Source: Lachnospiraceae bacterium (GTDB lineage Bacteria > Bacillota > Clostridia > Lachnospirales > Lachnospiraceae). From it: DNA of 58,634 nt. A program made the translations under genes and the position numbers. The stretch spans positions 1-58,634 of the forward strand of contig JAFSDJ010000083.1 in assembly GCA_017436305.1 (NCBI GenBank), read 5' to 3'. Shown here piece by piece: positions 32,821 through 58,634 of this stretch (position 1 is the stretch's first letter; each line of letters opens with the position of its first letter). A model generated the notes under the pieces. The model was given only the letters and a program-made list of their open reading frames with translations, had not been told where the DNA came from and made no database searches.

Positions 32821-32837
32821 AAGTAATAACAGTAAAA

Positions 32838-35563: not shown

Positions 35564-36436
35564 ATGACAGCCAGAGAAATGCAGGACATATATCCGTTAC
35601 TGCTAAAAAAAGCACAGGAACACAATCCTATGCTTTATATTGCTTACCGCCTCATGGCCGAATGTGGAATCTCCATAAAAGAGCTTCTTACGCTCCCCTC
35701 CAAGGCTTTATATTCCCATTCCAACGATTCCTGTTTAAAAGAGCCTTTTGACGCAAACACCCTTCCAACGGAAGTAGCGGCAAAGCTCCCGAAAACAGGT
35801 CTTTTATTCGGTTCCGATTACAATTATATCCAGTTGAAATACCGGCACGAGGTTTTTTTAAATACAACAGGTTTTCCACCTTTTTTACTAAGCGATTTAA
35901 CCCAGTATTTCTTTTACCGGTCCCTGCTTGCACAAAAAAGCCTAAAGAAACTGCCCCCGCTTCGTGGTTCCAAGCTTGAAAAGGCACGTTCCTTTGGTCT
36001 GCCCCTGCGGGAATATATCAAGCTTCTTGGAATGAATGAAAATGACTATTTCAAGCCAAAATCCGGTTATATAGGTGCAGAATTTACACTGATTTCAGCG
36101 GATATATCCAAAATATGGAATGTTCTGCTTTACACCTGCTGTTTTCCGTCAGCGACAGTAATAGAAAACCAGCATCGGATTTTTCTTTTTTATGAAAAGT
36201 TTGACGATTCCTGTCTCCGTAATATTGGAATCTACACCAGAAAGCACGATTACGACAGCCTGTATAAATTTTTAGACAAACTATCGTATCTTGCATATAA
36301 CGGCTTTATAAAGCCGCTTGACCTCCATCAGCTCACAAAGGAAACAGAACGGCTTTTTGAAATTTACTTATACAACACGCTGGCACCGGAAGCATTTCTT
36401 TTTGCAGAGGATAATAACGATACTTCTTTACCATAA
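35564..36436 (+). CDS. Hypothetical protein (290 aa)
   Basis: AAGGAGG precedes ATG 35564. This is a soluble protein. Residues ~24-45 (LYIAYRLMAECGISIKELLT) recall the first catalytic-domain helices of tyrosine recombinases, but the later HxxR and the tyrosine motif are not recognisable, so I do not call it an integrase. No other family recognised. A bidirectional terminator separates it from the convergent 36476 gene. Confidence 0.6.
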   Translation: MTAREMQDIYPLLLKKAQEHNPMLYIAYRLMAECGISIKELLTLPSKALYSHSNDSCLKEPFDANTLPTEVAAKLPKTGLLFGSDYNYIQLKYRHEVFLNTTGFPPFLLSDLTQYFFYRSLLAQKSLKKLPPLRGSKLEKARSFGLPLREYIKLLGMNENDYFKPKSGYIGAEFTLISADISKIWNVLLYTCCFPSATVIENQHRIFLFYEKFDDSCLRNIGIYTRKHDYDSLYKFLDKLSYLAYNGFIKPLDLHQLTKETERLFEIYLYNTLAPEAFLFAEDNNDTSLP

Positions 36437-36477
36437 AAATGCCCTGACAGTTTATTATGACTGCCAGAGCATTTTTT
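36437..36477. terminator. Bidirectional terminator
   Basis: AAAATGC-CTG-CAG pairs with CTG-CAG-GCATTTTTT between two convergent genes, with A- and T-runs on both sides. Confidence 0.75.
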
Positions 36478-37369
36478 AAAGAAACGGTGTTATATCCACT
36501 TTGTAAAACCGGAGGTTTCCGTCCACAACCTCCGGTGCATAAAGCCACTCAAAAGGATTTTTGTCATAAGCTGCCTCTATGGCATAATATGCCGGAAGTT
36601 CCAGAAGGCTTTCATAGGACAGAAGCTTTGCTGCCACCTTTCCAATATGTTCCATATCCTCTCCTATCAGGATTACCGCCATATCCTCGCTGTCTTTTAT
36701 GGTATTTAAAAGATATACCATATCCCGTATGAGAAGTTCTTCCTGTTCCTCTTTCTTTTTGCACACATAAGACAGTACTGTCATATTTTTGCTTTTCATG
36801 CCAAAAGGAAATACCATTTTCTTCTCTTTTCCTTCCACGTTGTAGGGCAGGTAACATTTTCCCTTTTTCTCCGCCTTTACTGCTATTGCGTACTGGTTCA
36901 AGCTCAGGCATTCCAGCACCCCTGCTGCATCTTCCATGTCACACACTGCACTGTCTCTTTGTTCTTTCTCAAAAAGGAGCCTTTTTGAAGCATTTGAAAG
37001 AGTATACACATAAAGCGTCCTTGTATCCGTTTCTTTTGGTTTTGACATACGATAGCACTCTATCATGTTTTCTTTTCTAAGTCTCATAAGAAGATTGGAA
37101 TAATCCGTTTTTCTGATACCAGCCGGGATATATCCCAGCCGGTTCAGTGCTTTTGTTATCATATATTTATTCAGACAGCCATATGTGGAAAGGACGCGGA
37201 ACAGACACATTTCATGGGCACCCATTTTCTTTTGTTCATACAGCCTTACCATGTCCCGGTACACTTTCTCCTGTTCCTCTTTTGCCACCATCTCTCCCTG
37301 CAGCACAAAAGAAGTTCCTATTTCATAATGGAACAATGACACTTCCGCCTCATTCGTTATCAAGCTCAT
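36476..37369 (-). CDS. Replication-relaxation-like winged-helix protein (297 aa)
   Basis: The ATG at 37369 lies inside the end of the coupling-protein gene (20-bp overlap) with a GGAG site. Residues ~45-125 (YGCLNKYMITKALNRLGYIP, then LLMRLRKENMIECYRM and YVYTLSNASKRLL) form a winged helix of the type found in replication-relaxation proteins next to TraG/VirD4 genes. The remainder is a mixed alpha/beta domain. It probably acts with the coupling protein at the transfer origin; that role is inferred. Confidence 0.6.
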   Translation of the reverse strand: MSLITNEAEVSLFHYEIGTSFVLQGEMVAKEEQEKVYRDMVRLYEQKKMGAHEMCLFRVLSTYGCLNKYMITKALNRLGYIPAGIRKTDYSNLLMRLRKENMIECYRMSKPKETDTRTLYVYTLSNASKRLLFEKEQRDSAVCDMEDAAGVLECLSLNQYAIAVKAEKKGKCYLPYNVEGKEKKMVFPFGMKSKNMTVLSYVCKKKEEQEELLIRDMVYLLNTIKDSEDMAVILIGEDMEHIGKVAAKLLSYESLLELPAYYAIEAAYDKNPFEWLYAPEVVDGNLRFYKVDITPFL

Positions 37370-39917
37370 ATCTTCTCCGCCTTTCTTCCTCCGTAAAATT
37401 CACTTCTTTTTCCGCACCAGCCATTTCATCCGGTTCCACAGAGACATCCATGGCTTTTAAAAGCTCCTTTAACTCTTCCTCATGCCTGCTTCCTTCCCAT
37501 ACCTGTGTTTTTGTATGCTGGATGGCGAAATTACTGTTTTTAAGTGCCTGCTCCTTTATTCCACCCTTTATATGGAAATTGGATGTTTTAATGCTTCCAC
37601 TGCCCTCCACCGGAGTTTTCCGTACAAAGCGGGACCACTCCTTATAGGGATATACATGTCTTTTTTTCTTCCGGAAATCTTTGGGACGAAGGAAAAATGT
37701 TTTTCCAACCCTCGCATTCATTACATTTCCGTTTTCCACCGTCAGTATGGTAGCTTCCCTGAACCGCCGCATTCGGATTTGATTTTCCGTAACCGCTTCC
37801 GTTTCATCCTCTGTTACACGCTCCGAGAAAGACATGTTCGGATCTTCTGAAAGAATGGAATTTTTTGACACCGTTTTCTGCACCACATCTTTTTTCACTT
37901 TTCCGGAAAGGGCAGAATAATATTCCATTTCCTGTTTAGAGGTACGTCCAAACACAATATGGGTTCCGGCTGTCATAATAATATCCTTAAGCCCCGGCAC
38001 GTTACAGGTATCAAACTGCGCAAGGGTCTGCAGTGCCACAAGAAGCGACACATTATACTGTCTGAGCAGAATCCATAAGGTGCCAATAATCTTATCCATA
38101 TAATGGGACAGCTCATCAATATAGATATAATGAGGGGTACGTCTTCCGACCGGTCTTCTGAACGCTGCAAACTTCAGGTTATAAAGAATAATCAGACCAA
38201 GCGATTTACTTCTTTCCTCACTGTCTGCCATAGATGTATTAATCAGGGTTATCTGGTTTTTGCTGTAAACCTTGTCAAAGTCAACAAACTTTTCATTGGA
38301 ATACAGATTCATGATTTTAGTACTTCTGAACACTTTGTTTATGAGGTTTCGCAGTCCTCTGGCCTGACTGAACAGTTCCCCCTGTCCTGCCCCCATCAGC
38401 TCCTGCTTCAAAAAAAGGAGGGTATTATAATAAATACTGTCCATGCTTCGTTTGATTTTCTCCTTTTCTGCCTGTGTATAGATTTTTTTCGGTTCATCCG
38501 GATTCTTTTTATAATCCCTTGCACCCTTGATTTCCGGTACCTCAATCAAAAGATCGTAATGGTCCTCAATCTTCTTTATATCATCTTCAAGCAGGGTAAA
38601 GTTGTTGATACAGTTCTGGATATCCTTAGCCCTTGTAAGTTCCACCCCGTCAATATGGTTTGCCAGCATTTTTACCATTGCAATATTGGTGGTAACAGCC
38701 CGGGTAATATCCGTAAAATAAACATCTGCTTTTTCTCCGCCCATTACATTGACCGCCACCAGTACCTCCGTAAACATTTCCGCACAGTCTGTAATACGGG
38801 TTTCCAGTTCTTCCTCATCAATATCATTCGGTATATAAAACGGCTGGAGACCTACCAGTTTTTCATTTTTAAATTTCTCCTGTTTTCTGGAAGTATCAAT
38901 AACATTTACTTCAAAGTCCCTTTTTTCCGCCATTTTGCAGATAGTATCAATCAGGTCATTATTGGGTGCCATAACCGTAATACCCGCATCCGGATATTTC
39001 TTGTAAATCTTTTCATATTCTTTCCGATATTCTTTTTTCGGGCAGATCATTGCTTCGGTCAGTTTTCTTTCTTCCCCTATCACATATGCTTTTCCATCTT
39101 TTAGCATTCGCACCAGATATTCCATACGTTTTTCCCGGTTTCTAAACTTGGTATCCAGGTCATCCCTTACTCCGGCCATAATGGATGTGCTTGTTTTTCC
39201 GGTTCCGGAAGCACCCACTATCAGCACGTGCATACGCCTTGTCACTTCACTGACTTTAATTACAGCACCATCCACGATATTTTTTATAATCTTCAGAGCA
39301 TACTCCGCAGAATCATCCTGCTTTATAACATCCGCAATACAGAAGTTAATAATGTTTTCTTTCGCTTCCACAGACCATATGACAGGATAAACCGTACTTC
39401 CAATTACACTGATTACAATGGCTGCCACAATTATTTCCGCCATACGCAGAATATTAATAATCATATTTTCCGTCATGTATTCATCCGGTGTCATCTGCAT
39501 GATTTTAGGCATCACAAAATCCCACGTAATGGTATAAAAGACCTGGTTAATCGTCAGCATGATATGTAAAATCACAAGCTGCATGGCAGCCCATTTGCGT
39601 TTATGAAAATTAAACCAGTCATAAGTTGTCAGCAGTGCCCATGACAGCGCCGGTGCTGCCACCGAAAATGCCATATAAAAGCCGTTTGTTGATATTATCA
39701 TGCGGTCTAAATACACAAAACAGTACATATACCTGATTATCATGAAAATCATATTCGCTATGCTAAAGCCCGCCAGAATCCCTGTCAGAATATCTTTTTC
39801 ATACTCTTCATACATCATAAGCATTTTATGAAGAACCTGATTTGTTTTTCTTTCTTTTTCTTCCTGTTCAAAAAAAGCACTCTCCAGTGCTTTGACCATA
39901 CTTTTTCTTTTTGCCAC
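37350..39917 (-). CDS. TraG/VirD4-type coupling ATPase
   Basis: This is an 855-residue protein with four N-terminal membrane helices (to ~residue 190). A P-loop (VGASGTGKTS) is at ~232-245 and a Walker B (YIYIDELSHY) at ~597-606. The stretch NVSLLVALQTLAQFDTC and a TraG/TraD-type C-terminal region follow. Such proteins feed the relaxase-DNA complex into the conjugative secretion channel. The size fits the family. It is the first gene of an operon with the winged-helix gene, driven by a shared backbone promoter at 39950-39978. The -10 hexamer of that promoter is 33 bp upstream. Confidence 0.88.
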   Translation of the reverse strand: MAKRKSMVKALESAFFEQEEKERKTNQVLHKMLMMYEEYEKDILTGILAGFSIANMIFMIIRYMYCFVYLDRMIISTNGFYMAFSVAAPALSWALLTTYDWFNFHKRKWAAMQLVILHIMLTINQVFYTITWDFVMPKIMQMTPDEYMTENMIINILRMAEIIVAAIVISVIGSTVYPVIWSVEAKENIINFCIADVIKQDDSAEYALKIIKNIVDGAVIKVSEVTRRMHVLIVGASGTGKTSTSIMAGVRDDLDTKFRNREKRMEYLVRMLKDGKAYVIGEERKLTEAMICPKKEYRKEYEKIYKKYPDAGITVMAPNNDLIDTICKMAEKRDFEVNVIDTSRKQEKFKNEKLVGLQPFYIPNDIDEEELETRITDCAEMFTEVLVAVNVMGGEKADVYFTDITRAVTTNIAMVKMLANHIDGVELTRAKDIQNCINNFTLLEDDIKKIEDHYDLLIEVPEIKGARDYKKNPDEPKKIYTQAEKEKIKRSMDSIYYNTLLFLKQELMGAGQGELFSQARGLRNLINKVFRSTKIMNLYSNEKFVDFDKVYSKNQITLINTSMADSEERSKSLGLIILYNLKFAAFRRPVGRRTPHYIYIDELSHYMDKIIGTLWILLRQYNVSLLVALQTLAQFDTCNVPGLKDIIMTAGTHIVFGRTSKQEMEYYSALSGKVKKDVVQKTVSKNSILSEDPNMSFSERVTEDETEAVTENQIRMRRFREATILTVENGNVMNARVGKTFFLRPKDFRKKKRHVYPYKEWSRFVRKTPVEGSGSIKTSNFHIKGGIKEQALKNSNFAIQHTKTQVWEGSRHEEELKELLKAMDVSVEPDEMAGAEKEVNFTEEERRRRYELDNE

Positions 39918-39949
39918 GCTGCACCTCCCAAAACGCTGCCTTTTATTCT

Positions 39950-39978
39950 ATTCAAGAAAAAGGTAACAGGCATGTCAA
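39950..39978 (-). promoter_or_regulatory. Shared backbone promoter copy (coupling protein)
   Basis: On the minus strand TTGACATGCCTGTTACC is followed by T-tract and TTGAAT, with 17 bp between TTGACA and TTGAAT. Confidence 0.7.
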
Positions 39979-39994
39979 GATTCTTTTTATAAGA

Positions 39995-40036
39995 AAAAGA
40001 GAAAGAACAGGGTTTTCCCGTTCTTTCTCTTTTATA
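39995..40036. terminator. Bidirectional terminator after parR
   Basis: AAAAGAGAAAGAAC and GTTCTTTCTCTTTT are perfect 14-bp arms, with T-runs on both strands. It lies 25 bp past the parR stop. Confidence 0.8.
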
Positions 40037-40060: not shown

Positions 40061-40600
40061 CTATCCAAATTTTGGTACATTCAAAATAGCAAATATATCA
40101 TCTTCCTCCGCCATTTGTTCTTCCTTACCAGTCTCTTTATTATCATCAACCGTTTCAAAAGATTTCACTTCTTCATGCCCGGTTGTCTCCATCCGCCCGG
40201 TTGTTTTTTCCTCTTCCTTTTTATCTCCGGACGAATCCCGATACCGTCCCAAAAGCATATCCTCTTCTGTCAGTATCCAGCACTCCTCTGTCCGTTCAAT
40301 ACCTGCCCGCAGAATGGTTTTCACAATAACCGCTACCTGCTTTCCCATTTCCGCCTGTTCAGATAAATAGATAAACGCTTTTGCCTTTTCCGGGATAACC
40401 AGGTGAAGTCGTTTTTTTGCAAGCTTTTTCTCCCCTGTTACTCCGCCGATTTTTAAAATCCGCCCCGTATTGGCATAGTAAGCAATGGCTTCCAGGCAGA
40501 TTGCTGTTGCATTTCCACCCTGTTCCTTCACAGCAGAAAGCCACTCACTTATCACCGCATCTTTTTCCTTTAAATCAATATAAACATCAGGTTTTATCAT
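40061..40600 (-). CDS. parR: ParR-type centromere-binding protein
   Basis: This is a 179-residue protein. The N-terminal and central parts are small, basic and helical (KKLAKKRLHLVIPEKAKAFI, then YLSEQAEMGKQVAVIVKTIL), consistent with ribbon-helix-helix DNA binding. An acidic linker leads to a short hydrophobic C-terminal tail (EEDDIFAILNVPKFG), the usual ParM-binding element. The start overlaps the parM stop by one base. It is inferred to bind the 11-bp repeats upstream of parM and couple them to filaments. Confidence 0.75.
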   Translation of the reverse strand: MIKPDVYIDLKEKDAVISEWLSAVKEQGGNATAICLEAIAYYANTGRILKIGGVTGEKKLAKKRLHLVIPEKAKAFIYLSEQAEMGKQVAVIVKTILRAGIERTEECWILTEEDMLLGRYRDSSGDKKEEEKTTGRMETTGHEEVKSFETVDDNKETGKEEQMAEEDDIFAILNVPKFG

Positions 40601-41781
40601 TATTTACACCTGTTCATGACAATTTTATACATACCAACTGCTACACCGAATACCGGATTAATCGGTTTTCCATAGAACTCATACTCTGTCAGACGGATAT
40701 TTCCTTTCAGATGGCTCTTTTTCTCTTCCAGTTTCTTTTTGAAATATTCATAGTAGCAAGCCCCGGTTCCACCCGTCAAAAGAATCTGCATAATATCAAT
40801 CATGTTATCATACTTTTCATTCAGATAATCCACAAAGCCATCTACAGTCTTTTCTATTTCTTCATTAAGAATCTGCTTTGCATCAACCTGCTCCACACTA
40901 CCGTCTTCTTTTACAGTATTTACCATTCCATCATATTCATTGATATAAACTTCCAGATTGAACCTTGTAACCTGTTTTGCTCCCATCTGGTTCAGTCTTT
41001 CCACCGCTCTTTCTACCGCATTGCTCATGGCATATTCTGTGTTGCTTTCCCCGCCTGTTGTTGTGTTGATTCTGGTAAACTTAAAGATACCCATTGTCTT
41101 ATATCCACCATCAATCAAAAGTAAAGGAAGCTTTTTAAAATACACACTGTTATAATCCGGTATACCATTTTCATCCGAAAACGCTCCAATAAGCGCGCAC
41201 TGTGCCTGAGAGTACACAATAACATTTTCCGGTTTAATATCAAATTTTATGCTGTACTCCTTTTCACTATTTTCAATCAAAAAGCTGTGAAGCTTTGCAA
41301 ATTTCTGTTTCATCAGACCTGTATATTTTTCATACACACCATGCGGAAGCGCTACACCTAAATATATTTTCCAGTCATTCAGGCTCTTTTCAGTACTTAT
41401 TGCCGGCGACAATCCCATCTTTTTGCAATCCTTTTCATACTCCGTTAAAGCGATTCCGATTGCTGCAATCGTGGAAATTTCAAAGTCAAATGTCTCAAAG
41501 TATGAATAATCATTTATGAAACTTTCTTTTCTTGCATACTCTTCCAGTTTTTCCTTTTCTGTTTTTGCACTTCTTGCATAACTTCCAATGTAATATTCCT
41601 TACCATCCTCATATGTACATTTATAATAGTTGTCTTTTTTCTTACCAAGCATCCCTCCGGTGCTTTCCACTACATCCTTATCAATCAGGAATGTTGTGCC
41701 GTTTACCACTACTTTAGTGGAGTCAAACCCTGGATCAATACCTATTGCCAGTGTCTTATCTTTACATCTTTGTGCTGTCAT
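40600..41781 (-). CDS. parM: ParM-like actin ATPase
   Basis: This is a 393-residue protein from ATG 41781 with AAAGGAG ten bases upstream; an upstream TTG at 41814 has no such site. Actin-family motifs are present: phosphate 1 LAIGIDPGFDSTKV, phosphate 2 LLLIDGGYKTMGI, adenosine LLTGGTGACYYEYF. It forms filaments that push plasmid copies apart. The gene overlaps parR. An array of nine 11-bp repeats lies ~120 bp upstream. Confidence 0.85.
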   Translation of the reverse strand: MTAQRCKDKTLAIGIDPGFDSTKVVVNGTTFLIDKDVVESTGGMLGKKKDNYYKCTYEDGKEYYIGSYARSAKTEKEKLEEYARKESFINDYSYFETFDFEISTIAAIGIALTEYEKDCKKMGLSPAISTEKSLNDWKIYLGVALPHGVYEKYTGLMKQKFAKLHSFLIENSEKEYSIKFDIKPENVIVYSQAQCALIGAFSDENGIPDYNSVYFKKLPLLLIDGGYKTMGIFKFTRINTTTGGESNTEYAMSNAVERAVERLNQMGAKQVTRFNLEVYINEYDGMVNTVKEDGSVEQVDAKQILNEEIEKTVDGFVDYLNEKYDNMIDIMQILLTGGTGACYYEYFKKKLEEKKSHLKGNIRLTEYEFYGKPINPVFGVAVGMYKIVMNRCK

Positions 41782-41896
41782 TACTTTGCTTCTCCTTTCC
41801 TTTTTCCTTTTCAATTTTTTGTTTTCTCTTTTGCTTTTTCATTATCATAGTATACTTTTTTCTATTTGTCAAATCTTCATTTTGGCTCTTTTTTGA

Positions 41897-48271: not shown

Positions 48272-49717
48272 ATGCCACAGAAATATGAATGCTATCATAC
48301 AAGACCATGTTATATTTGTGGTAAAAAAGACTGGTGTTACTGGTTAGATTATGGCTCAACAGGTATCCTTCATTACTGTCATAGAATTCACGATGATGAA
48401 ATCATTGCGAATGGCCACATATATATTGCAAAAAAAGTGGTCTCTGGCTGTACTGTTTATGAAGATAAGCAGCAGTATGAAAGAAACCTGGAAGAATGGA
48501 TTGCTTCAAAGGAAGGAGAAAAGTCGTTTAGGCGAAGAAAATTATTGCCTAAAAACAGAACTTCTGTAGAAGTAATTCCGGGGGAAAAAGAGAAGGTATA
48601 TGAAGAATATCCGGTGGCTCCGCCGGAGAAACTGGATGAGGTATACCATTATTTTTTATCCCTGCTGGTGTTGGAAAGCTGGCATGAAAAACTGCTTCGT
48701 GATGAATGGAACAGTCCGGTATTTAAAAACCTTTACGAATTCATTACCGGGCTGTGGCCGATTAAAACACTGCCACCGAATGATTATGTTCGGTTTGCAG
48801 GTAAGATGCCCTATAAAAACCTGACAAGAAAGAGTATTATGGAAAAAATGATAAAGAAATTTGATACTCTTGAAGGGATTCCGGGTTTTCACCAGAAAGA
48901 GGACGGAAACTGGACATGTTCCTATCTGGCAGGAATGGTTTTTCCCTGCTATAATTCCAATGGACAGATTATTAGGCTGCGTATCAGGGATGATTTCCCG
49001 GTTGTTAAAGAGGCAGTTTATAAAGGATGGACGGGAGAATACCGTTATGAATGTACAAAAGAGGAAATCGGCTGGTTTTTCTGTAAAGAAGGTACAGAAA
49101 ATAAGGTTCTTGTATTCGGCTATGACCGAATAACAGGAGAAGCCATAAGAAAAATATCGTTGACCCAAAATGGTCAGCCACCTGGAAAAGTATTCGGAAA
49201 GTATAAAAACTTTACGTCTTACAAAGAAAAAAATATAGAGAAAGAGGATTTTATACAGGTTATAAACTATTATAACAAAGGAACCAGATCGGGTTCGCCG
49301 ATTTCTCTTTATATGAAACCAGGGGACGATATACGGACTGTGTACATTACAGAAGGTGAAAAGAAAGCAATGGTAATCAATGCTTTTACCGGATGTCCGG
49401 TTATATCCTTACCGGGAGTATCCAACTATGGAAAACTCTTTGAACCACAGGAAGGTATTGGAATGAGTATTATGGATGCACTTAGGGCAGCCGGAGTGGT
49501 AAATGTTGTGCTGATGTATGATGCAGACAAGCGCAGCAAAGAAAATGTAGCTTACAGTGAGAAGCAGGCCATGGAACAGATTTTAATGCATGGTTTTATA
49601 CTCTGGGTAGGAGAATGGCTACAGTACTTCGGAAAAGGTTCCGATGACTGTTATATCACAGGCGTTAAGCCGGTTCTGCACCGGATTGTACGACAGGAAA
49701 GTGGACCAGTGAAATAA
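48272..49717 (+). CDS. Primase-like zinc-finger/TOPRIM (DUF3854-like) protein
   Basis: This is a 481-residue protein. The N-terminal zinc-ribbon-like cysteines (CYICGKKDWCYW, then YCHR) are at ~13-37. TOPRIM-like motifs lie at ~358-366 (YITEGEKKA) and ~413-419 (LMYDADK). The pattern matches DUF3854-type plasmid and phage primase relatives. AAGGAGGG precedes the ATG. It probably makes primers or processes DNA for plasmid replication. The C-terminal ~60 residues are helical; no helicase domain is present in this protein. Confidence 0.7.
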   Translation: MPQKYECYHTRPCYICGKKDWCYWLDYGSTGILHYCHRIHDDEIIANGHIYIAKKVVSGCTVYEDKQQYERNLEEWIASKEGEKSFRRRKLLPKNRTSVEVIPGEKEKVYEEYPVAPPEKLDEVYHYFLSLLVLESWHEKLLRDEWNSPVFKNLYEFITGLWPIKTLPPNDYVRFAGKMPYKNLTRKSIMEKMIKKFDTLEGIPGFHQKEDGNWTCSYLAGMVFPCYNSNGQIIRLRIRDDFPVVKEAVYKGWTGEYRYECTKEEIGWFFCKEGTENKVLVFGYDRITGEAIRKISLTQNGQPPGKVFGKYKNFTSYKEKNIEKEDFIQVINYYNKGTRSGSPISLYMKPGDDIRTVYITEGEKKAMVINAFTGCPVISLPGVSNYGKLFEPQEGIGMSIMDALRAAGVVNVVLMYDADKRSKENVAYSEKQAMEQILMHGFILWVGEWLQYFGKGSDDCYITGVKPVLHRIVRQESGPVK

Positions 49718-49854: not shown

Positions 49855-49892
49855 TATAAATAGAAGATTTTATGTGTGAAGGAGTAAAAGAT

Positions 49893-50711
49893 ATGGAAAT
49901 TCAATATAAATCCATACTGATATTAGGAGATTATCCGGAGAACAGCCAGAATACCAGCCGACGGATGATTGATATGATAGTAAATTATTTTTGCAATGCA
50001 AGTTTACAGGATAAGGGATACCAGGTATCAAGAATACAAATAGCAAAAACCATCGAGGAAGCAAATGAATATCTGAGAAAAGAATATTTCGATATATTAT
50101 ATACTCAGGATATGGTGGCAGGTATTCCTGTTGGTGTAGGAAAAATTAAGAAGTGGAAAGAAATATCCCCAAAAACCAGAACCATTCTGATGATGAAAAC
50201 AGAGAGCAGAGGTGGCAGAAAGGTACAGGGGTTATATGATATCCAGTATTATGATGGCTGTTTCTTCTCAGGATTTAACTTAAAAGAATTAAATAAGCTG
50301 ATTTTGTGTGGAAGAACCCCGGATATGGCACAGAGGTATTATGGTCTCCAGCCTGTTCTAACGGATAACTTTACAAAAGAAAAGCAGGGGGCTGCGGAAC
50401 AGGTACAGAATCAAGTACCCCTTGAAAATGAGGAAACGGATGAAAAAAGAGAAACTGTAAATATACAGGAGCAAAAGAAAATTCAGACCGAAGTAAAAAA
50501 AGAGCAGAATAGCCAGCCGGAAAAGGAGCAGGGTAAGCAAAATGGACAGGATAAACATTCATTCCAAAGCAGCCGGCCCTCATTAACATTTTGTAAAGGC
50601 AAGGTGGTGTCTGTATTAAGTGATAAAACAGTGATTATTGAAACTTCGGCTGCCAATGGACTTAAGGTAGGGGATATTGTTGCAGTTCCGCAGACAGATT
50701 TTAATTGGTGA
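49893..50711 (+). CDS. Receiver-like hypothetical protein (272 aa)
   Basis: ATG 49893 has GAAGGAGT upstream. Residues 1-135 look like an alpha/beta receiver-type fold (YKSILILGDYPENSQNTSRR, then DILYTQDMVAGIPVG and RTILMMKTES), but the phospho-acceptor pattern is not clear. A Lys/Gln/Glu-rich linker (~165-225) leads to a small C-terminal beta domain (GKVVSVLSDKTVIIETSAAN, then VGDIVAVP). It may be a regulator or scaffold for the backbone operons. Confidence 0.55.
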   Translation: MEIQYKSILILGDYPENSQNTSRRMIDMIVNYFCNASLQDKGYQVSRIQIAKTIEEANEYLRKEYFDILYTQDMVAGIPVGVGKIKKWKEISPKTRTILMMKTESRGGRKVQGLYDIQYYDGCFFSGFNLKELNKLILCGRTPDMAQRYYGLQPVLTDNFTKEKQGAAEQVQNQVPLENEETDEKRETVNIQEQKKIQTEVKKEQNSQPEKEQGKQNGQDKHSFQSSRPSLTFCKGKVVSVLSDKTVIIETSAANGLKVGDIVAVPQTDFNW

Positions 50712-50788: not shown

Positions 50789-50903
50789 ATGCACCTATTT
50801 AGGTGTATGTGAAAGAAAAAGTCTCACTGTTGTTGAGCGAAAAAGAAGGTGGAATACTGAATATAGATTTATTTAGCACGTATCGTAAGATAGGTGCTTT
50901 TTT
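50789..50903 (+). promoter_or_regulatory. Attenuator leader of the methyltransferase operon
   Basis: A terminator hairpin, AGCACGTATC/GATAGGTGCT (one mismatch) plus T6, lies at 50875-50903. Upstream GCACCTATT (50791-50799) can form a small hairpin with AGGTG or pair with GATAGGTGC of the terminator. These are mutually exclusive structures typical of antitermination control. Confidence 0.5.
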
Positions 50904-50955
50904 ATGTTCAGGCAGAGAAAATGATAGTCAGAAATTAGAAAAAGGAGGAAAGGGC

Positions 50956-52080
50956 ATGATTAATGTCACAAAAAGCGTAGGCAGTACTTTTTCAAGAACT
51001 GCTTCTAATGTTGAGAAAATGGGAGCATACTATACAGACCGCCAGCATTGCAAGGATTTGGCTAAGCTGTTTGTATTTCCCAAAGACGAGCCGGTAACGG
51101 CGCTGGAACCGTCCATAGGGGACGGATTTGCTGTAACAGCGGTTACGGATGCATCCCATAATGAAAATGTTCATATTTTCGGAGTGGAATTAAATGCACA
51201 GGTAGCGGAGGAAACAAGGGAAAATCCTTATGTTGAGCAGGTTTTAAGTGGCGATTTTCTAACGGATGTAAGAATATCCGGTAAAGTGTTTTCTTTTGTA
51301 TTTGGAAATCCACCCTATCTGACGGAAAAAGAGGAGGAAGAAAATCTGACATCCATGGATAACAGACTGGAATGGAAGTTCTTGGAAAAAGTAACCAACC
51401 TTATGATGACAGGAGGCATTTTAGTCTGGGTCATACCACACAGAATTTTCACTGACAGCTTTTATTTCGGGCGGTATTTAAACCGGTTTGAACTTTTGAA
51501 AGTTTACAAATTCAGAAAATCAGAGTATGAGAAATTCAAACAGGTGGTAATCATCGGACGAAGATTAGCCGGAACAAAAGGGCTAATGCGGAGTAAAAAG
51601 GAAGAACTGCTTGCGGATATGGAACTGGAAAAATTGAAAGAACTTCCAGAAGACTTTAAAGAGTCAGAGAAAATTTTAGTTCCAGCATCTGCTCCGGAAC
51701 AATTAAAAACATTTTGTTTAAAGGAATTTGATACAGAAGAAGCAGGACGCATTCTGGATAGCAGTTCCTTTATGGATGTAAGGAAAGTGATTGGAAAGGA
51801 GTTAAAGCAGGAAACCTTTAACACAGTGGATATGGGGCAACCTGTTATTCCGTTAAAGAAAGACAGCCTTTACCTGTGTGCCACAGCAGGCGCAGGAATG
51901 GGGCTTGTAGGTTCGGAAGGTGACCTGCATTTGCAGAGGGGGAATGTAGAGATGGTAGAAACCGTTGAATATGAAAAGGACCCCACTAATCCGAATAAAA
52001 TGATAGCGGTATCTGTAACAAAACCGCAGGTCAGTATGACAATAGTGGAAAACAGTGGCAAAATAAGCCATCTGTTATAG
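50956..52080 (+). CDS. N6-adenine DNA methyltransferase
   Basis: ATG 50956 has AAGGAGGAAA upstream; an earlier in-frame ATG at 50803 reads through the attenuator and is unlikely. This is a 374-residue protein. The SAM-binding motif (VTALEPSIGDGFAV) is at ~48-61 and the catalytic NPPY at ~119-122 (FVFGNPPYL). It looks like the DUF6094-type adenine methylases of large mobile elements. It precedes the helicase by ~50 bp. It could modify plasmid DNA for anti-restriction or mark DNA for the partner helicase; the role is inferred. Confidence 0.8.
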   Translation: MINVTKSVGSTFSRTASNVEKMGAYYTDRQHCKDLAKLFVFPKDEPVTALEPSIGDGFAVTAVTDASHNENVHIFGVELNAQVAEETRENPYVEQVLSGDFLTDVRISGKVFSFVFGNPPYLTEKEEEENLTSMDNRLEWKFLEKVTNLMMTGGILVWVIPHRIFTDSFYFGRYLNRFELLKVYKFRKSEYEKFKQVVIIGRRLAGTKGLMRSKKEELLADMELEKLKELPEDFKESEKILVPASAPEQLKTFCLKEFDTEEAGRILDSSSFMDVRKVIGKELKQETFNTVDMGQPVIPLKKDSLYLCATAGAGMGLVGSEGDLHLQRGNVEMVETVEYEKDPTNPNKMIAVSVTKPQVSMTIVENSGKISHLL

Positions 52081-52129: not shown

Positions 52130-55100
52130 ATGATAGTACAGCTGGGAACAAATAAAGCAGAAGCAGATGTTGTTATTCTTACACAGAAGCGGGAGCCTTT
52201 ACTTTTATCTTTTTTTGACCGGTCTTCAGTAAAGATTAATGCCATGGCGCAGTCTGTCTGCATGAAAAGTTATGGTGTGTTTGAAGACAGGTATATTACA
52301 ATTCCGAAAGATGCAGATTTTGTAAAGGTAAGCAAACAGGTGAACATGAAAAGGGACCGCTTTACATATTGTGCTTTAATCAGTAAAAAAATAGGAAAGG
52401 AATATATTATTACGACAAAAGAAGAAATGTATGAGGACTTGTATCATTTTCTCATGCAGAACTTTAAACTTCCATTGTTAAAGGAATTTATTCCATACCT
52501 ATATGAAAGGCTGAGTCAGGAACAGTTTATAACCGAGGAGACAGACGTTTATTCACGAAGTGGAATGGATAAAAAAATCTGTCTTGGAAGTAATCAGATC
52601 TTATTAAGCCAGTTAATTGTTTTAAACGTTAAGGTGGCAGAAGAAAAACTGGAAAAAATTCTTTCAGAAGGATTAGAAAAGAAGAAAATTCATATCAGTG
52701 AAAGCAAACAGGAACCACTTTGCTTTGACAATTTTGATGATTATATCAAAAAATACGGAAAAAGTCTGGTGGAAAACCTGGAAAGCAAGCTGGAACCATT
52801 AGCACCGTTAAATGGCTATCTGGATTATACGGCAATGAAGACAAAAAGACTTTATCCGCAGCAGGCAGCTATCGGCAATGGAGTAAAAGCAGCAAAGAAA
52901 AATAAGCTTGCCCACATGTTACTAAACTGTGGTATGGGAACCGGAAAAACCATTATGGCAGTAGCCGCCATTGACAGTTATTTTAATGAAAAGTGGCTAA
53001 ACAGAAATCCGGGAAAAACACTTTTAGATGCTTATGAAGAAGACCAGGTAAATTACAGGGTAATTATTATGGCACCATCCCATCTTGTAGAAAAGTGGGA
53101 GGAAGAAATATTAGAAGAAGTACCCTATGCAAAGTGTACGGTAATCACTAATCTGGAACAGCTCTTAAAGCTGCACATGGAACCTAAAAAACCAAAAGGA
53201 AGACGGTACTATGTCATGTCCAAAGACTTTGCAAAACTTGGCTCATCTGTAAGTCCGGTGCCTGTTAAAATCCGGAAAAAACGGCCAATAGCAAATGTGT
53301 GCATGGATTGTCTTGGGGCAGACCTTGACATGAATTTTGAACCACATGTAAGGCTTTTACGAAAAGAGAGTCCGTTTGAACTGTCAGAACTGGAAAAACT
53401 GACAAAACACTGGCAGGTTGGAAGAGGCAGAAATGCTGTTTGTGATGTATGTGGAGGAAAACGGTTTCATCCCGTTTATATACAGGAAACAGAACAGGAA
53501 GGACTCATCTGTCCGGAATGCAACCAGCTTCTGATGCGGGCAAGCAGTACTTTGGTAAGAAAGGAAGAAGAAATCGAAAATTATATCCTAAAGCCAAAGG
53601 ATTTCAGCCAGCATACGGAAAAGAATGACGTATGCTACAGCTGTGGTGCACAGCTGTGGAGTGTGAATTCCAAAAATATTGACAAATGCGGCTATTACAA
53701 TAAGAAAAGGCCGCAAAAGATATGGGGAAAGATTTCCTATTATAAAACTTTTGCAAGAAAAAGTAAGGAAACGGCCTTTGTTATGAAAGGTATGGAAGAG
53801 GAATACATGCAGGACAAATTAATTAAAGAATATGAATGTCTGGAAAGAGAAGAAGGACCAAGAAGATATTCTCCGGCACAGTTTATCAAACGGAAACTGG
53901 GCAGGGGATTTTTTGATTTCTGTATTCTGGATGAATGTCACAAATATGAAGGATTTGGGACAAGCCAGACAATTGCAGCACATGCTCTGGTTAAAGCATC
54001 AAAATTTACCATGGGGCTTACAGGTACTATTTCAAATGGTACTGCCAGTGCATTTTTTTCCCTGTTATTCATGCTGGAACCAAAAAGAATGATTGAAAAG
54101 GGATATTCTTATAGTTCAGCTTCCATTCTGGAATTCAGCAGGCGGTATGGTGTAGTGGAGACCGTATACGAGGCAACTCAGGATCCGGTTTATAACAGCA
54201 TGTCAAAAGGAAAACAGAAAACTTCACCAAGGGTGAAGCCCGGTATTAATCCGGTACTGTTTATTCATTATCTTATGGATCGTGCAGTGTTTCTTGATTT
54301 GTCGGATATGAGTAAATATATTCCACCATTGGAAGAGAAAGTGGTAACATGCGAACTTCCTAAAAAAGTGCAGATTTCTTATGACAGCGTGATGAGCCGA
54401 TTAAAAGGAGTCACAAAGAAAGAAGGTGCCGGAATCATGACAGAAGCCTTGAATTTTGGCTTGTCTTATGCGGATAAGGTATATGGAAGAAATCCCATTC
54501 TCTCCCCCATGTGTGACGGTATGGTAATAGCAAAACCGGATGAGCATGCAGAATACAGCAGGCCGGATTGCCTTCTTCCGAAAGAGGAAAAGCTGATAGA
54601 GCATATTAATTCGGAAATAAAAGAGGGAAGGAATGTTTTTGTATATGCCAGCTATACCGGTAAGAACGAAACAAACGTGGCACCAAGGCTGAAAGAAATC
54701 ATTGAGAATAATTGTAACCTGAAAAAGAGAGTACAGATTATTGAATCTTCAAAACCGGTTGCAAAAGACAGGTATAAGTGGATTAAAAAGAAAGCAAAAG
54801 AGGGAGTTAAGGTATTTATCTGTAATCCAAAGGTAGTGGAAACTGGGGTAGATTTTAAATTTAATTATGACGGAAAAGATTATAACTACCCTACTATCAT
54901 ATTTTTTCAGGTGGGACATGAACTTGCGGTATTATGGCAGGCTTCAAGGCGTTCCTATAGACTGAACCAGACGGAAGTCAGCAGGGTTATCTGGATGTGT
55001 TATAAAAATACACTTCAGGAAGAAGCTTTGTACCTGATGGCTAAAAAGATGTCAGCTGTGGCAGCAGTATCCGGAAAATTCAGTACGGAAGGATTAGCGG

Positions 55101-55543
55101 CACTGGCTGAAGGAGTTGATCCAAGAGTGGTGCTTGCACAGGCTATGAGCAGACAGGATACCAGTGAGAGAGAGTCGCTTGAAAATATGTTTGATGTTTT
55201 GTCTGCACGTACAGAGGATGAAGATATGACAGAAGACTATAAATTAATGCCAACTTTCTATGAGCTAGGAGGTAGGGATGAAAAAGAAGATGCGTTTGCG
55301 TTGTTTAAACAGGTTGCTTTCGTGTCTTCATCAGAAAATAACAGGAACGAAGAAACAAAGGAACCTGTTAAGAAAAAGGAAAAAAGCTTACTGGCAACGG
55401 TTGCTTTTGAGGAAGATGATATTTTTGCGGGATTTTTCTTTAAAACACAGCAGGAAGTTGTAGTGCAGAGTGAAAAGAGGAATAAGAAAGCAAAGAAAAC
55501 AAATTCCGGAAAGGGTATGCCGGGACAGCTTAGTTTATTTTAA
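52130..55543 (+). CDS. Large SF2 helicase with zinc-binding insert and clamp-binding tail
   Basis: This is a 1137-residue protein from ATG 52130 with AAGGAGG upstream. The P-loop is at ~268 (CGMGTGKTIM) and a DECH box at ~600 (FCILDECHKYEGFG). A cysteine-rich insert lies at ~437-505 (CDVCGG, CPEC, CYSCG). The second RecA-like domain (VFICNPKVVETGVDF, then LWQASRRSYRL) follows. This matches SNF2/DEAD-type SF2 translocases. The last five residues are QLSLF, the canonical beta-clamp-binding motif, and a clamp homologue starts 26 bp downstream. It probably travels with plasmid replication forks. Confidence 0.85.
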   Translation: MIVQLGTNKAEADVVILTQKREPLLLSFFDRSSVKINAMAQSVCMKSYGVFEDRYITIPKDADFVKVSKQVNMKRDRFTYCALISKKIGKEYIITTKEEMYEDLYHFLMQNFKLPLLKEFIPYLYERLSQEQFITEETDVYSRSGMDKKICLGSNQILLSQLIVLNVKVAEEKLEKILSEGLEKKKIHISESKQEPLCFDNFDDYIKKYGKSLVENLESKLEPLAPLNGYLDYTAMKTKRLYPQQAAIGNGVKAAKKNKLAHMLLNCGMGTGKTIMAVAAIDSYFNEKWLNRNPGKTLLDAYEEDQVNYRVIIMAPSHLVEKWEEEILEEVPYAKCTVITNLEQLLKLHMEPKKPKGRRYYVMSKDFAKLGSSVSPVPVKIRKKRPIANVCMDCLGADLDMNFEPHVRLLRKESPFELSELEKLTKHWQVGRGRNAVCDVCGGKRFHPVYIQETEQEGLICPECNQLLMRASSTLVRKEEEIENYILKPKDFSQHTEKNDVCYSCGAQLWSVNSKNIDKCGYYNKKRPQKIWGKISYYKTFARKSKETAFVMKGMEEEYMQDKLIKEYECLEREEGPRRYSPAQFIKRKLGRGFFDFCILDECHKYEGFGTSQTIAAHALVKASKFTMGLTGTISNGTASAFFSLLFMLEPKRMIEKGYSYSSASILEFSRRYGVVETVYEATQDPVYNSMSKGKQKTSPRVKPGINPVLFIHYLMDRAVFLDLSDMSKYIPPLEEKVVTCELPKKVQISYDSVMSRLKGVTKKEGAGIMTEALNFGLSYADKVYGRNPILSPMCDGMVIAKPDEHAEYSRPDCLLPKEEKLIEHINSEIKEGRNVFVYASYTGKNETNVAPRLKEIIENNCNLKKRVQIIESSKPVAKDRYKWIKKKAKEGVKVFICNPKVVETGVDFKFNYDGKDYNYPTIIFFQVGHELAVLWQASRRSYRLNQTEVSRVIWMCYKNTLQEEALYLMAKKMSAVAAVSGKFSTEGLAALAEGVDPRVVLAQAMSRQDTSERESLENMFDVLSARTEDEDMTEDYKLMPTFYELGGRDEKEDAFALFKQVAFVSSSENNRNEETKEPVKKKEKSLLATVAFEEDDIFAGFFFKTQQEVVVQSEKRNKKAKKTNSGKGMPGQLSLF

Positions 55544-55569
55544 AAAGGTTATATAAAGGAGGATATGTT

Positions 55570-56886
55570 ATGGATAACAAAAAAATGGAAACCGTTGTAT
55601 TAGGAAATGCTACTGTAAAGGAAATGTTGAATTGCATGAAGGCAGTCAAGAAGCCGGAAAATCATGCATTATTTAAGTTTTATACCAGAAAAAATAAAAA
55701 GGACAAGGCGGTTCATACCATAACCGCTGTAGGTGATGGCATTATGATTGAAAAAGCTTTTTTAAGCTCCATACCGAAAGGGATTGAGGTTAAAGGTGAT
55801 AAACCGCTTTTTGAAACAGTATGTGGAATGCCGGAGATGCTTGAAAAGCTTTCGGCAGTTGTAAGCCTGGGAGAAGATATTAGGATTAACAACCAGGAAG
55901 CAATACTGCAGGTACAGGCTGGAAAGAGAGCCGCTGTTAAAGTAAACAAATGTCAGCCTGCAGAAATGGAAGCATTTCTTCCGCAGAATGCAGAAAATGT
56001 ACTTTTTAACATGGTTATAAAAGGCAAAGATTTTAAAAACATGGTTAAAAAGGGTTGCTTTGCATATGGAGAAGATTCACCAAATATGATGGGCTCCATT
56101 ACATTTGTATTAAATGACTGCTGTCTGACTGCTTATTCGACAGATGGGCATATGATGGCAAGAAGCAGCTGTGTTGTACAGCGAGAGGATGTAGAAAGGG
56201 AAGTACTTGATGATGAAGGAAACCCCGTTTTAGCAGAGGATGGAAACCAAAAGATGGAAAATGTCTTTTTAAAGTATTGTGAAGAAAAAGACTATGACCC
56301 ATCTTCTTATGTTTTTTCTATTCCTTCAGGAAATTTTAAAATACTGGAAACGCTGTCACAGGCAGCGGAAAATATTATTGTAAGTGTTTGTCCGAAGCAG
56401 ATTCTGATTGGTCTTCCGGCAATCATGATTACGATAGTAAGTGGGAATGTGAATGGCAATGAAGGCAGCAGCTTTGGCAATTTTTTCACAAAAGCTTCCA
56501 AAGATACATTTGTTATTGATAAGGAAGAGTTTTCTGCCAATATGGAAGTTATCAGACTTGGCAAAGAAGAGCCGGTCAGCTTCCAGATTAAAAAGGATAA
56601 CTTAATTATCCAAAAAGGGGATGTTGCAATGACATCACAGCCACTTGTTGACAAGGAAGGCAGTTTCGAGAAACCGTTTTACCTTGATTATAAGAAATTA
56701 ATTAAGATATTCGGCTCGTTAGAGAATGGAAATGTGACGGTAGAAACTACCGGTCCCAAATCCCAGGTGTTTTTTTATAACGGGGAACTTGATACGGAAC
56801 GAATCAATGCAAGTCTTGTATTACCGGTAAGCGGTGTAGAGGAAGCAGAAGAAAGTTCCGGAGAGGAAGAAGATACAGAAGAATAA
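55570..56886 (+). CDS. Plasmid-encoded DNA polymerase III beta clamp homologue
   Basis: This is a 438-residue protein, slightly longer than chromosomal DnaN (~370). It has repeated beta-clamp folds: a middle-domain segment CCLTAYSTDGHMMARSSC like the DnaN ATDGHRLA motif, and a C-terminal domain with ENGNVTVETTGPKSQVFFYN. A charged insertion (~215-245) and an acidic tail (EESSGEEEDTEE) are added. AAGGAGG precedes the ATG. Sliding clamps tether polymerases and mobile enzymes to DNA. The preceding helicase ends with a clamp-binding motif, so the two probably interact. Confidence 0.75.
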   Translation: MDNKKMETVVLGNATVKEMLNCMKAVKKPENHALFKFYTRKNKKDKAVHTITAVGDGIMIEKAFLSSIPKGIEVKGDKPLFETVCGMPEMLEKLSAVVSLGEDIRINNQEAILQVQAGKRAAVKVNKCQPAEMEAFLPQNAENVLFNMVIKGKDFKNMVKKGCFAYGEDSPNMMGSITFVLNDCCLTAYSTDGHMMARSSCVVQREDVEREVLDDEGNPVLAEDGNQKMENVFLKYCEEKDYDPSSYVFSIPSGNFKILETLSQAAENIIVSVCPKQILIGLPAIMITIVSGNVNGNEGSSFGNFFTKASKDTFVIDKEEFSANMEVIRLGKEEPVSFQIKKDNLIIQKGDVAMTSQPLVDKEGSFEKPFYLDYKKLIKIFGSLENGNVTVETTGPKSQVFFYNGELDTERINASLVLPVSGVEEAEESSGEEEDTEE

Positions 56887-57088: not shown

Positions 57089-57158
57089 TTGACATTCGCG
57101 TAACCACTTTTTTATTATAAAATCGAAAATTATAGATTATAGATTGAAAATCTATAAT
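57089..57158 (+). promoter_or_regulatory. Promoter and repeat of the T4SS operon
   Basis: TTGACATTCGCGTAACC, then T-tract and TATTATA: a variant of the shared backbone promoter in which the GTTACC and TTGAAT elements are not conserved. ATTATAGAT and ATCTATAAT form an inverted repeat at 57129-57158. ATTGAAAATCTATA (57143-57156) is the same motif seen upstream of the TraX and adhesin genes. Confidence 0.5.
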
Positions 57159-57170
57159 AAGGAGAAAAAA

Positions 57171-57488
57171 ATGAGATTTTTACTAATGGTTGATTATTAC
57201 AATTCGCTTGTAAAAACGGATTCCACAATGTTTTCCAATCAGGAGAAAGGGATGCTGGATCTCGGAAACCAGTTATTGGGTGTAGGAGCTTTACTTCTTG
57301 TTTATGTAGCAGTTCTTGTCATCGTAATATGTTCCATGAAAATAGGATACGGTGCATTAAAGAGAACTGAAAACGGATTATCACCAAAAGAACGGATTTT
57401 ATTGGTGGTTGGTTGTGTAGTGGCCGGATTCTCAATTGTTGGAATTGTGCAGTCTGTACTGGAAATTGGAGCATCAATAGGTGGATAA
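57171..57488 (+). CDS. Small two-helix membrane protein, T4SS operon (105 aa)
   Basis: ATG 57171 has AAGGAG upstream. Two transmembrane helices (LLGVGALLLVYVAVLVIVIC; ILLVVGCVVAGFSIVGIVQS) and a polar N-terminus are visible. The size and layout resemble VirB2/TrbC-type pilin-like subunits. It starts the likely secretion operon. No processing site was recognised. Confidence 0.6.
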   Translation: MRFLLMVDYYNSLVKTDSTMFSNQEKGMLDLGNQLLGVGALLLVYVAVLVIVICSMKIGYGALKRTENGLSPKERILLVVGCVVAGFSIVGIVQSVLEIGASIGG

Positions 57489-57543
57489 AAATATAGGCAC
57501 AAATGAGTGTTTATATAAAAAAACAGGGAAAGGAGGAGAAGAT

Positions 57544-57951
57544 ATGTTTTTTCCAGCAAATTATATTATGCCTGTAAGCTATATCCTGAATACTTTTTTT
57601 ACAGATCCGGATGTAGCAGGCAAGGTAACGGGACAGGTTGATGCGTCTGGTCCGATGGGAGATTTTATTCAAAAAATATCAACACTTGGTAATGGAGTAG
57701 TAGCAGTTTTTATGACATTATCAATGTTTGTGTTTGTTGTGATGGTAATTATTGCATCAATCCTTCTAGGAGGAGCCTCGCGCTCAGAAGGAAAAACGAA
57801 AATTCTTTATATTATTCCGGCAATTATTCTTTGTTTCGCAGCAGTGGGAGTTGTTTCTTTTGGAGCAAAACTAGGTGCAAACTTGTTTAGTACAACTACA
57901 AGTACAACGACTACGACGACTACTTCGACTGCAACACCGGGAACACAGTAA
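57544..57951 (+). CDS. VirB2-like membrane protein with Thr-rich tail (135 aa)
   Basis: ATG 57544 has AAAGGAGGAG upstream. Two transmembrane helices (~57-80, VVAVFMTLSMFVFVVMVIIA; ~94-112) and a Thr/Ser-rich C-terminus (STTTSTTTTTTTSTATPGTQ) are visible. A pilin-like subunit of the conjugation machinery is likely by context. A short hairpin terminator follows. Confidence 0.6.
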   Translation: MFFPANYIMPVSYILNTFFTDPDVAGKVTGQVDASGPMGDFIQKISTLGNGVVAVFMTLSMFVFVVMVIIASILLGGASRSEGKTKILYIIPAIILCFAAVGVVSFGAKLGANLFSTTTSTTTTTTTSTATPGTQ

Positions 57952-57954
57952 TAA

Positions 57955-57986
57955 ACAAAGGGGTTCAAAAAAGGACCCCCTTTTTC
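57955..57986 (+). terminator. Internal hairpin in the T4SS operon
   Basis: AAAGGGG pairs with CCCCCTTTTT around a 10-base loop between the pilin-like genes and the 58001 gene. It may reduce downstream expression relative to the pilin genes. Confidence 0.6.
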
Positions 57987-58000
57987 TTGAAAGGAACATT

Positions 58001-58297
58001 ATGACAGTAAAAACAACATGGGAGTATCTTGAAAAACCTCCCGAAGCAGACAACAACATTATTACACCATTGCTGGCGGGAATTTATCAGGCCATATATA
58101 ATTCCATGTTTTATATTGCACCGGCAATGTTACTGGTAACAATTATTTCAATAATTCTGGCAAGTACATCAGAGGCTTTAAGAGAGGGGAAAAGAAACTT
58201 AGAAACAGGAGTTTTGATTCTTATTATTGCAGCAAGCTGTATTTACTGGCTGAATCTGATACTGGCGGTTGTTTTAAGTTTTGTTGGAATTATATAG
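58001..58297 (+). CDS. Small membrane protein, T4SS operon (98 aa)
   Basis: ATG 58001 has AAAGGAAC upstream. Two transmembrane helices (MFYIAPAMLLVTIISIILAS; LETGVLILIIAASCIYWLNL) and a short N-terminal soluble part are visible. It resembles another pilin-like subunit of a type IV secretion system. The VirB3-like gene follows closely. Confidence 0.6.
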   Translation: MTVKTTWEYLEKPPEADNNIITPLLAGIYQAIYNSMFYIAPAMLLVTIISIILASTSEALREGKRNLETGVLILIIAASCIYWLNLILAVVLSFVGII

Positions 58298-58309
58298 AAG
58301 GAGAAAAAT

Positions 58310-58634
58310 ATGAAAGGACGATTTCGTGTAATTGGAAAACTCAGGGATGAGGACAAATGGCTGGGGCTTACAAAGAAACAACTCGTTTATGCACTTATAG
58401 GAGTGTTTTTTATAGTTAATATTGTGAAGGTCACTTATAAGTTAAACCTGATATTTTTTGGTGGATTTTTTTCGACTGCAATCGGGATAGCGGCTTTTAT
58501 ACTGTGTAAATATGAAGTGGACAAGAAGAAATATTTAAAAGGCGGTGGGTATGGAATTGATGTGATATTAATTCGCATGATTATTCGTAAACTACCCGGA
58601 AATCGTGTTCTTTATGTGAAGGGACTGGAAAAAG
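58310..58634 (+). CDS. VirB3-like/DUF5592-type membrane protein (partial)
   Basis: ATG 58310 has AAGGAG upstream; the gene runs off the window. It has a basic N-terminus (MKGRFRVIGKLRDEDKWLGL), two hydrophobic helices (VYALIGVFFIVNIV; LIFFGGFFSTAIGIAAFILC) and then a charged segment. This is the layout of VirB3/PrgI/DUF5592 proteins that precede the VirB4 ATPase gene. The latter is expected just beyond the window. Confidence 0.55.
   Translation, partial: MKGRFRVIGKLRDEDKWLGLTKKQLVYALIGVFFIVNIVKVTYKLNLIFFGGFFSTAIGIAAFILCKYEVDKKKYLKGGGYGIDVILIRMIIRKLPGNRVLYVKGLEK

Follow-up and report, generated by a model that had tools for sequence, protein, structure and literature searches.

Why does a large ATPase of a mobile element end in a pentapeptide of the sliding-clamp-binding type, and why is its gene followed almost at once by a gene for a sliding clamp? 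The question is raised by a stretch of 58,634 nucleotides from a Lachnospiraceae bacterium (contig JAFSDJ010000083.1, assembly GCA_017436305.1), the whole of which is called the window here. Judged from its genes, the window belongs to a large conjugative-like element of this bacterium. We favour, with a probability of about 0.5, the reading that this element carries a DnaN-type clamp together with a second set of clamp-loader genes, and that the ATPase is the motor of a methylase-helicase dyad, with a tail that would act as a clamp tether and deliver the dyad to new element DNA. This reading is built on the genes themselves, the predicted fold of the clamp, the recurrence of the tail, the operon-like adjacency of the genes and overlaps between contigs. 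The following features stand at its centre:

52130..55543, forward strand: SWI2/SNF2-type ATPase of superfamily 2 (SF2), 1137 aa, with Walker A, DECH, motif VI and four CxxC pairs
55526..55540, forward strand: QLSLF codons, predicted terminal clamp-binding motif, from the sequence and from recurrence with controls
55558..55562, forward strand: GGAGG Shine-Dalgarno of the clamp gene, from the sequence
55570..56886, forward strand: divergent DnaN-type sliding clamp, 438 aa, with an acidic C-terminal tail

The reading frame of the ATPase is open from 52097, and the start at 52130, which has a GGAGG upstream, gives a protein of 1137 aa that ends in ...GKGMPGQLSLF ahead of the stop codon at 55541-55543. 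A preliminary description of this DNA had spoken of a 1137-residue SF2 helicase ending in QLSLF; length and tail hold, and the label helicase is corrected here to SWI2/SNF2-type SF2 ATPase because Pfam finds a ResIII domain (PF04851, E 2.5e-10) and an SNF2-related domain (PF00176, E 2.9e-9). The motifs GMGTGKT, DECH, and QASRRSYRLNQ were located in it. Given the composition of the ATPase itself, a C-terminus that reads exactly QLSLF has a chance probability of about 7e-7, and one of the looser form Q[LIMFV]x[LIMVF]F a probability of about 1e-4.

Homologues of the ATPase came from GTDB genomes, viral contigs, plasmids, and further genomes of the family and class, one set comprising the best 80 of 396. 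Before counting, we removed open reading frames (ORFs) that run open at the 3' end, those below 550 aa, and duplicates that agree in their last 150 residues, which left 112 distinct ATPases with that of the window among them. Homologue loci are labelled by L-numbers; L014 and L015 end inside the ATPase gene and thus offer no tail. The strict pattern, Q[LIMFV]x[LIMVF]F within the last 16 residues, was drawn up after the tails had been seen and occurs in 25 of the 112 ATPases; when the last 40 residues were shuffled 500 times, an average of 0.13 ATPases carried it, and never more than 2. A background of 1009 other ORFs, all 250 aa or longer and some of them spurious frames, has it four times; three of these matches are proteins of such elements and the fourth (window 38103-39104) lies antisense to the coupling-protein gene. 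A first permissive pattern was present in 36 of the 112 homologues (shuffle mean 3.0, maximum 11; background 23/1009), and because it missed Bacilli tails such as QQELDLF, a wider penta- and hexapeptide pattern was adopted, for which shuffling over all 112 gives a mean of 5.2 and a maximum of 14 and the background 37 of 1011 ORFs. This wider motif is carried by 20 of the 23 ATPases in clamp-bearing loci (shuffle mean 1.4, maximum 6) and by 24 of the 89 in loci without a clamp in the fetched stretch. By these counts, a putative clamp-binding motif of the QLxLF type is recurrent and enriched at the C-terminus. It could be argued that QLSLF is a chance or structural end and no clamp-binding motif, since the strict motif is missing from most of the 112 homologues, including a large group in Proteobacteria with tails like ARQLVAA and with neither motif nor clamp in the locus. 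Against 25 matches in 112, where shuffling gives 0.13 on average and the background has 4/1009, such an end is very improbable, and the ATPase tail is likely a sliding-clamp tether.

The gene that follows begins with the ATG at 55570, 26 bp past the ATPase stop. Taken alone, its product matches only domain 2 of the clamp in Pfam (E 0.0056, under the cut-off), has no match in NCBIfam, and reaches E 4e-7 against PHROG 947. A profile of five clamps matches beta clamps of the PDB with E 4e-12, and all 13 hits up to E 10 are beta clamps. A model from 15 sequences predicts the three-domain beta-clamp fold for a single chain; the best matches of the clamp are beta clamps of bacteria and of phages. 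This model took over from a first one made with five sequences, which was poor (pLDDT 49) and the listed matches of which were already nearly all clamps. The family profile and the predicted fold thus both mark the divergent DnaN homologue that had been proposed 26 bp downstream as a beta clamp. It is about 12% identical to the host DnaN, a copy truncated by its contig, and between the window and five relatives the clamps share 12-18% identity while the ATPases share 36-44%. As a single query, the window clamp found no match in PLSDB or in viral contigs and only the window itself in 150 genomes of the family, and the clamp of L009, likewise used alone, found no match in PLSDB. The clamp is therefore too divergent for single-sequence search, and relatives were reached via the ATPase.

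Which clamp would the tail bind? At two of the three segments that we take to form the peptide-binding pocket, the window clamp keeps STDGHMMA and LVLPV; YPD..LIP is unrecognisable, in an alignment that is uncertain for proteins so divergent. Most private clamps of the Bacilli type retain segments resembling TDxHRLA and YPDxxxLIP and occur together with tails such as GQVALALF. In the private clamps of Clostridia the pocket segments have drifted (STDGHMMA in the window, CALNENCSMI in L010), and these mostly pair with host-like pentapeptides. The host itself has a PolC-type polymerase of 1505 aa with the C-terminus QISLFDFVS and a DnaE-type polymerase of 1191 aa with QMTLF at an internal site, both being named from length and family. 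PolC of B. subtilis is reported to end in QLSLF, and truncation mutants there were not recoverable (PMC12309361); transposases of insertion sequences (IS) are described as reaching the host clamp by a C-terminal QLxLF (PMC4549789).

It is possible, on this evidence, that the ATPase tail binds host DnaN and that the private clamp and its loader have another use, for example replication of the element with the host PolC; this differs from our favoured reading in the clamp partner only. The pairing of a host-like tail with a drifted private pocket, as in L010, where QLSLF is joined with CALNENCSMI, speaks for the host clamp as partner. The window tail resembles that of the host PolC and is identical to that of B. 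subtilis, IS transposases offer a precedent, and the 24 motif-bearing ATPases in loci without a clamp point the same way. Yet the fact that the ATPase and clamp genes are kept side by side speaks for the private clamp as partner, and a tail directed at host DnaN leaves both this repeated adjacency and the co-occurrence on plasmids unexplained. Moreover, at least five of the 24 supposedly clamp-free loci (L006, L132, L133, L134, and L135) have dnaN elsewhere on their own plasmid, and the window clamp does retain two of its three pocket segments. We put it at even odds that the private clamp, alone or with the host clamp, is the partner. The host clamp as sole partner, with the private clamp and loader serving elsewhere, is a real possibility that falls short of even.

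The genes upstream bear on what a tethered ATPase might do:

48272..49717, forward strand: primase-like gene (DUF3854; Pfam PF12965, E 1.1e-8; PHROG 47 DNA primase, E 1.8e-6)
49872..50711, forward strand: 279-aa ORF between the primase-like gene and the methylase, an open frame with no Pfam match above the cut-off
50803..52080, forward strand: adenine-type DNA methylase (DUF6094, with NPPY; PF19587, E 9.6e-21)

The methylase and primase-like genes noted upstream at the outset are borne out by the NPPY of the DUF6094 methylase and the PHROG primase match of the DUF3854 protein. An adenine-type methyltransferase (MTase) adjoining a SWI2/SNF2-type ATPase on a mobile element is the arrangement of a known methylase-helicase dyad, and the window ATPase with its upstream methylase is a clamp-associated form of it. 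Both partners look active, given NPPY in the one and GMGTGKT, DECH, and QASRRSYRLNQ in the other. By a custom profile, 86 of the 112 ATPase loci have a DUF6094-type methylase; the same profile finds none in the sequence retrieved for L127, L128, L129, and L131, where ATPase and clamp remain together. A defence-system reading of the two genes from PADLOC was dropped, the matches of the methylase being to the methyltransferase domain (generic type II MTases at best 3e-13, orphan MTase 3e-10, MADS mad2 1.7e-9) and the helicase matches of the ATPase being weak (best 5e-4).

Each of the seven Lachnospiraceae-type loci that include the gene end (the window, L005/L013, L009, L010, L011, L012, and L126) has the clamp 18-93 bp 3' of the ATPase. 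The distance is -17 to 660 bp in L127, L128, L129, and L131, and 0.2-2.4 kb in nine Bacilli-plasmid loci, namely L007, L008, and seven IMG/VR contigs. L136, L137, and L038 have the clamp upstream of the ATPase, and on the plasmids L136 and L137 it is upstream of the methylase and kilobases off. This last position would suit a private clamp that is a separate replication or decoy factor, placed beside the ATPase by a common replication or transfer operon and making no direct contact with it, an explanation that overlaps with the preceding one. The far faster divergence of the clamps (12-18% identity, against 36-44% for the ATPases) favours it as well. However, it fits poorly with a motif in 20 of 23 clamp-bearing loci and with an ATPase-clamp pair that is retained in four loci without a detected methylase, and we regard it as unlikely. 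L127, L128, and L131 form a second lineage, in which the ATPase and clamp are followed by genes taken by eye for a MoxR-type AAA+ gene and SSB.

Apparent loader genes were found on contigs linked to the window. The contigs of this genome are given C-numbers, C78 being the window contig, and overlaps were searched among all 107 of them. Exact 141-bp overlaps at contig ends join the right end of C78 to C42, C42 to C62, and C62 to C85; the right end of the window and both ends of C62 match no further contig of this genome. On C62/C85 there are a second delta (HolA; TIGR01128 1e-29, above its cut-off, with Pfam PF21694 at 22 bits against a cut-off of 27), a delta' (HolB; PF13177 7e-15, above its cut-off, with NCBIfam TIGR00678 below), and a DnaX in two parts, that on C85 matching PF13177 (1e-25) and, above its cut-off, dnaX_nterm (7e-77). 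The host copies are elsewhere, with DnaX on C7, HolB on C8, and HolA on C32. The window is therefore linked via overlaps to contigs with apparent genes for a second delta, delta', and DnaX, and the finding thus goes beyond the preliminary description. The order HolB-DnaX-methylase-helicase-clamp recurs in L005, L011, and L126 (HolB of L011 and L126 named by eye).

As for a replicative polymerase, PF07733 has matches on C15 and C58 only and none on C78, C42, C62, or C85, so the polymerase would have to be that of the host; nor is there a polymerase among the 25 families listed, of 29 that Pfam matched, for 43 of the roughly 60 element ORFs of at least 150 aa, the genome-wide search having covered PF07733. 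Of the 88 element ORFs that reach 80 aa, three have the strict C-terminal motif, the ATPase included. The others are a PAPS-reductase/SspD-like protein on C85 (L147 6349-7125; PHROG 424 2e-34, SspD 2e-13), whose tail is QLSIFDLLEKEE, and a protein of 391 aa on C85 (L147 17130-18305) that ends in QLSLFE and has no Pfam match. Three such proteins would fit a clamp that acts as a hub for the DNA-handling proteins of the element. In L011, where ORFs were named by eye, ORF 4781-5581 ends in QMSIFDMFS, and 6108-7487 has GGQLSLFP close to its start.

Under our favoured reading, clamps that remain behind the fork, or that are loaded in second-strand synthesis after conjugal entry, would bind the C-terminal QLSLF and so keep the ATPase attached. 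Thus tethered, the ATPase would bring the methylase-helicase dyad to freshly copied DNA of the element, along which the motor would translocate and which the methylase would mark, for instance against restriction. Clamp binding, tethering, and replication-coupled methylation are what we infer here. Methylase-SWI2/SNF2 dyads are reported from phages, plasmids, and conjugative elements, with DarB shielding phage DNA from type I restriction (PMC5512222), and plasmid methylases are also known whose action is coupled with replication and with the arrival of the transferred strand (PMC7736820). The element may thus follow and mark its own DNA while it is copied. A wider proposal is that large conjugative elements of gut Clostridia use an orthogonal clamp, delta, delta', and DnaX as a private tool belt for the methylase-SNF2 dyad and the QLSIF-tailed PAPS-reductase/SspD-like protein, so that DNA would be modified during copying without the host clamp; this we consider improbable. 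That the plasmid might bypass or compete with host replication control is speculation.

Several points weigh against the favoured reading. Besides the motif in loci without a clamp, the drifted Clostridia pockets, and the below-cut-off matches of delta and delta', the clamp is kept with no motif in L012 (DLLSLLGII), L126 (RLSELLDLIF), and L129. The presence of QLSLF in close homologues, on which the preliminary description had staked its claim, accordingly holds in part, since the motif is missing from L012 and L126 among the seven loci of the Lachnospiraceae type. The motif counts carry no correction for relatedness. The genome is a draft (84% complete, 3.7% contamination), and its contig links are assembly overlaps rather than reads, compared among the contigs of this genome only. 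Finally, with no DUF6094-type methylase detected in the sequence at hand for L127, L128, L129, and L131, methylation would not be the whole role of the pair there. The earlier proposal, a mobile-element helicase recruited to a private clamp, is supported in part: the clamp is true by profile and predicted fold, the ATPase beside it has a recurrent motif, and the element is conjugative-like and seems to encode a loader besides. The private clamp is a candidate partner of the ATPase, weakened by drifted pockets, a PolC-like tail, and the motif in loci counted as clamp-free.

The character of the element is indicated by further genes of the window:

37350..39917, reverse strand: TraG/VirD4-type coupling protein (PF12696, TraG-D_C, E 1.5e-7, above the cut-off)
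40600..41814, reverse strand: ParM/Alp-type actin-like segregation protein, of plasmid character (PF17989, E 7e-6, just above the cut-off)
57144..58634, forward strand: ORFs of small membrane proteins, in the place of pilin and PrgI genes of the type IV secretion system (T4SS) in relatives

The segregation protein has further weak ParM and PRTRC_D matches under the cut-off, and at the place corresponding to the membrane-protein genes L005 has T4SS_pilin and PrgI matches in Pfam, both under the cut-off. Secretion genes carry on into C42 across the 141-bp overlap, and AAA_10 (a candidate for the VirB4-like ATPase), sortase, DUF5688, and an anaerobic ribonucleotide reductase occur once each among the 43 element ORFs. 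C85 also has UvrD, JAB, SSB, ThiF, and integrases. JAB-domain and ThiF genes lie near each other (L151, C85 from 20001, 12761-16534) in what resembles a ubiquitin-like cassette, Prok-E2 has one match somewhere among the 43 ORFs, and L147 7321-8664 encodes a protein with a weak TIR/CAP12 effector match. Window positions 1-141 are a repeat identical on C29 and C8, with short similar stretches on C70, C87, and C85. The G+C content is 0.32-0.34 over 1-20000, 0.40-0.43 over 20001-40000, and then 0.33-0.39 to 45000, and the left part may be another segment.

The ATPase is present in 3 of 397 family genomes and 5 of 391 class genomes, the genome of the window being counted in both, and has relatives in 85 PLSDB plasmid records. 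Among the 60 of these records that were listed, at least 22 of 30 from Bacillota have dnaN by annotation or tblastn, a count of Bacillota records only and hence no measure of association. The helicase-clamp pair had been called unusual for a plasmid, a judgement to be tempered, as dnaN-like genes are not rare on large PLSDB plasmids, with matches to one query on 250 records, 83 of them from Pseudomonas and some chromosome-sized. A pattern search of viral contigs with the window ATPase alone gave no match, and tblastn found five phage records. The ATPases of L009, L010, and L011 have a second, internal QxxhF motif (QMPVFDIF, QLGIFDLF, and QFSVFDE) some 35-70 residues ahead of the C-terminal one. 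In Bacilli-type contigs, ATPase homologues are split into two ORFs (L096 8697-12208; L102 9494-14045, with pieces 1.1 kb apart).

Each component has known relatives. The dyad is like that of DarB (PMC5512222) in its adenine-type NPPY MTase adjoining a SWI2/SNF2-type ATPase, here on a conjugative-like element; it differs in the terminal clamp motif and the clamp gene that follows, and neither "clamp" nor "DnaN" occurs in the main text of that paper. The predicted three-domain fold is that of bacterial and phage DnaN, whereas the drifted pocket segments, the acidic tail, the conjugative-like element, and the SNF2-type neighbour set the window clamp apart. With B. subtilis PolC (PMC12309361) the window ATPase shares an identical pentapeptide at the extreme C-terminus, carried here by an ATPase and not by a polymerase. 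IS transposases (PMC4549789) are likewise mobile-element proteins with a C-terminal clamp motif, but they use the host clamp, while this element encodes a clamp and, on linked contigs, an apparent loader. In YoaA-chi (PMC4636137) a helicase-family protein is coupled to clamp-loader machinery, but YoaA contacts chi and not a clamp through QLxLF. In the literature searched, outside of which lay subscription papers, no description was found of a plasmid-encoded clamp with a clamp-binding helicase. What is new here is a combination of known kinds, the methylase-helicase dyad and the mobile-element DnaN, together with unexpected loader genes on linked contigs.

If the favoured reading is true, a known methylase-helicase dyad would gain a targeting mechanism, being tethered by a clamp to DNA just synthesised, and conjugative elements, besides phages, could carry a clamp and their own loader while borrowing the polymerase. 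Two clamp systems side by side in one cell, and their separation by peptide specificity, would thereby become testable. With clamps at 12-18% identity and ATPases at 36-44%, the strong divergence of the clamps would be a natural experiment in the co-evolution of clamp, loader, and peptide.

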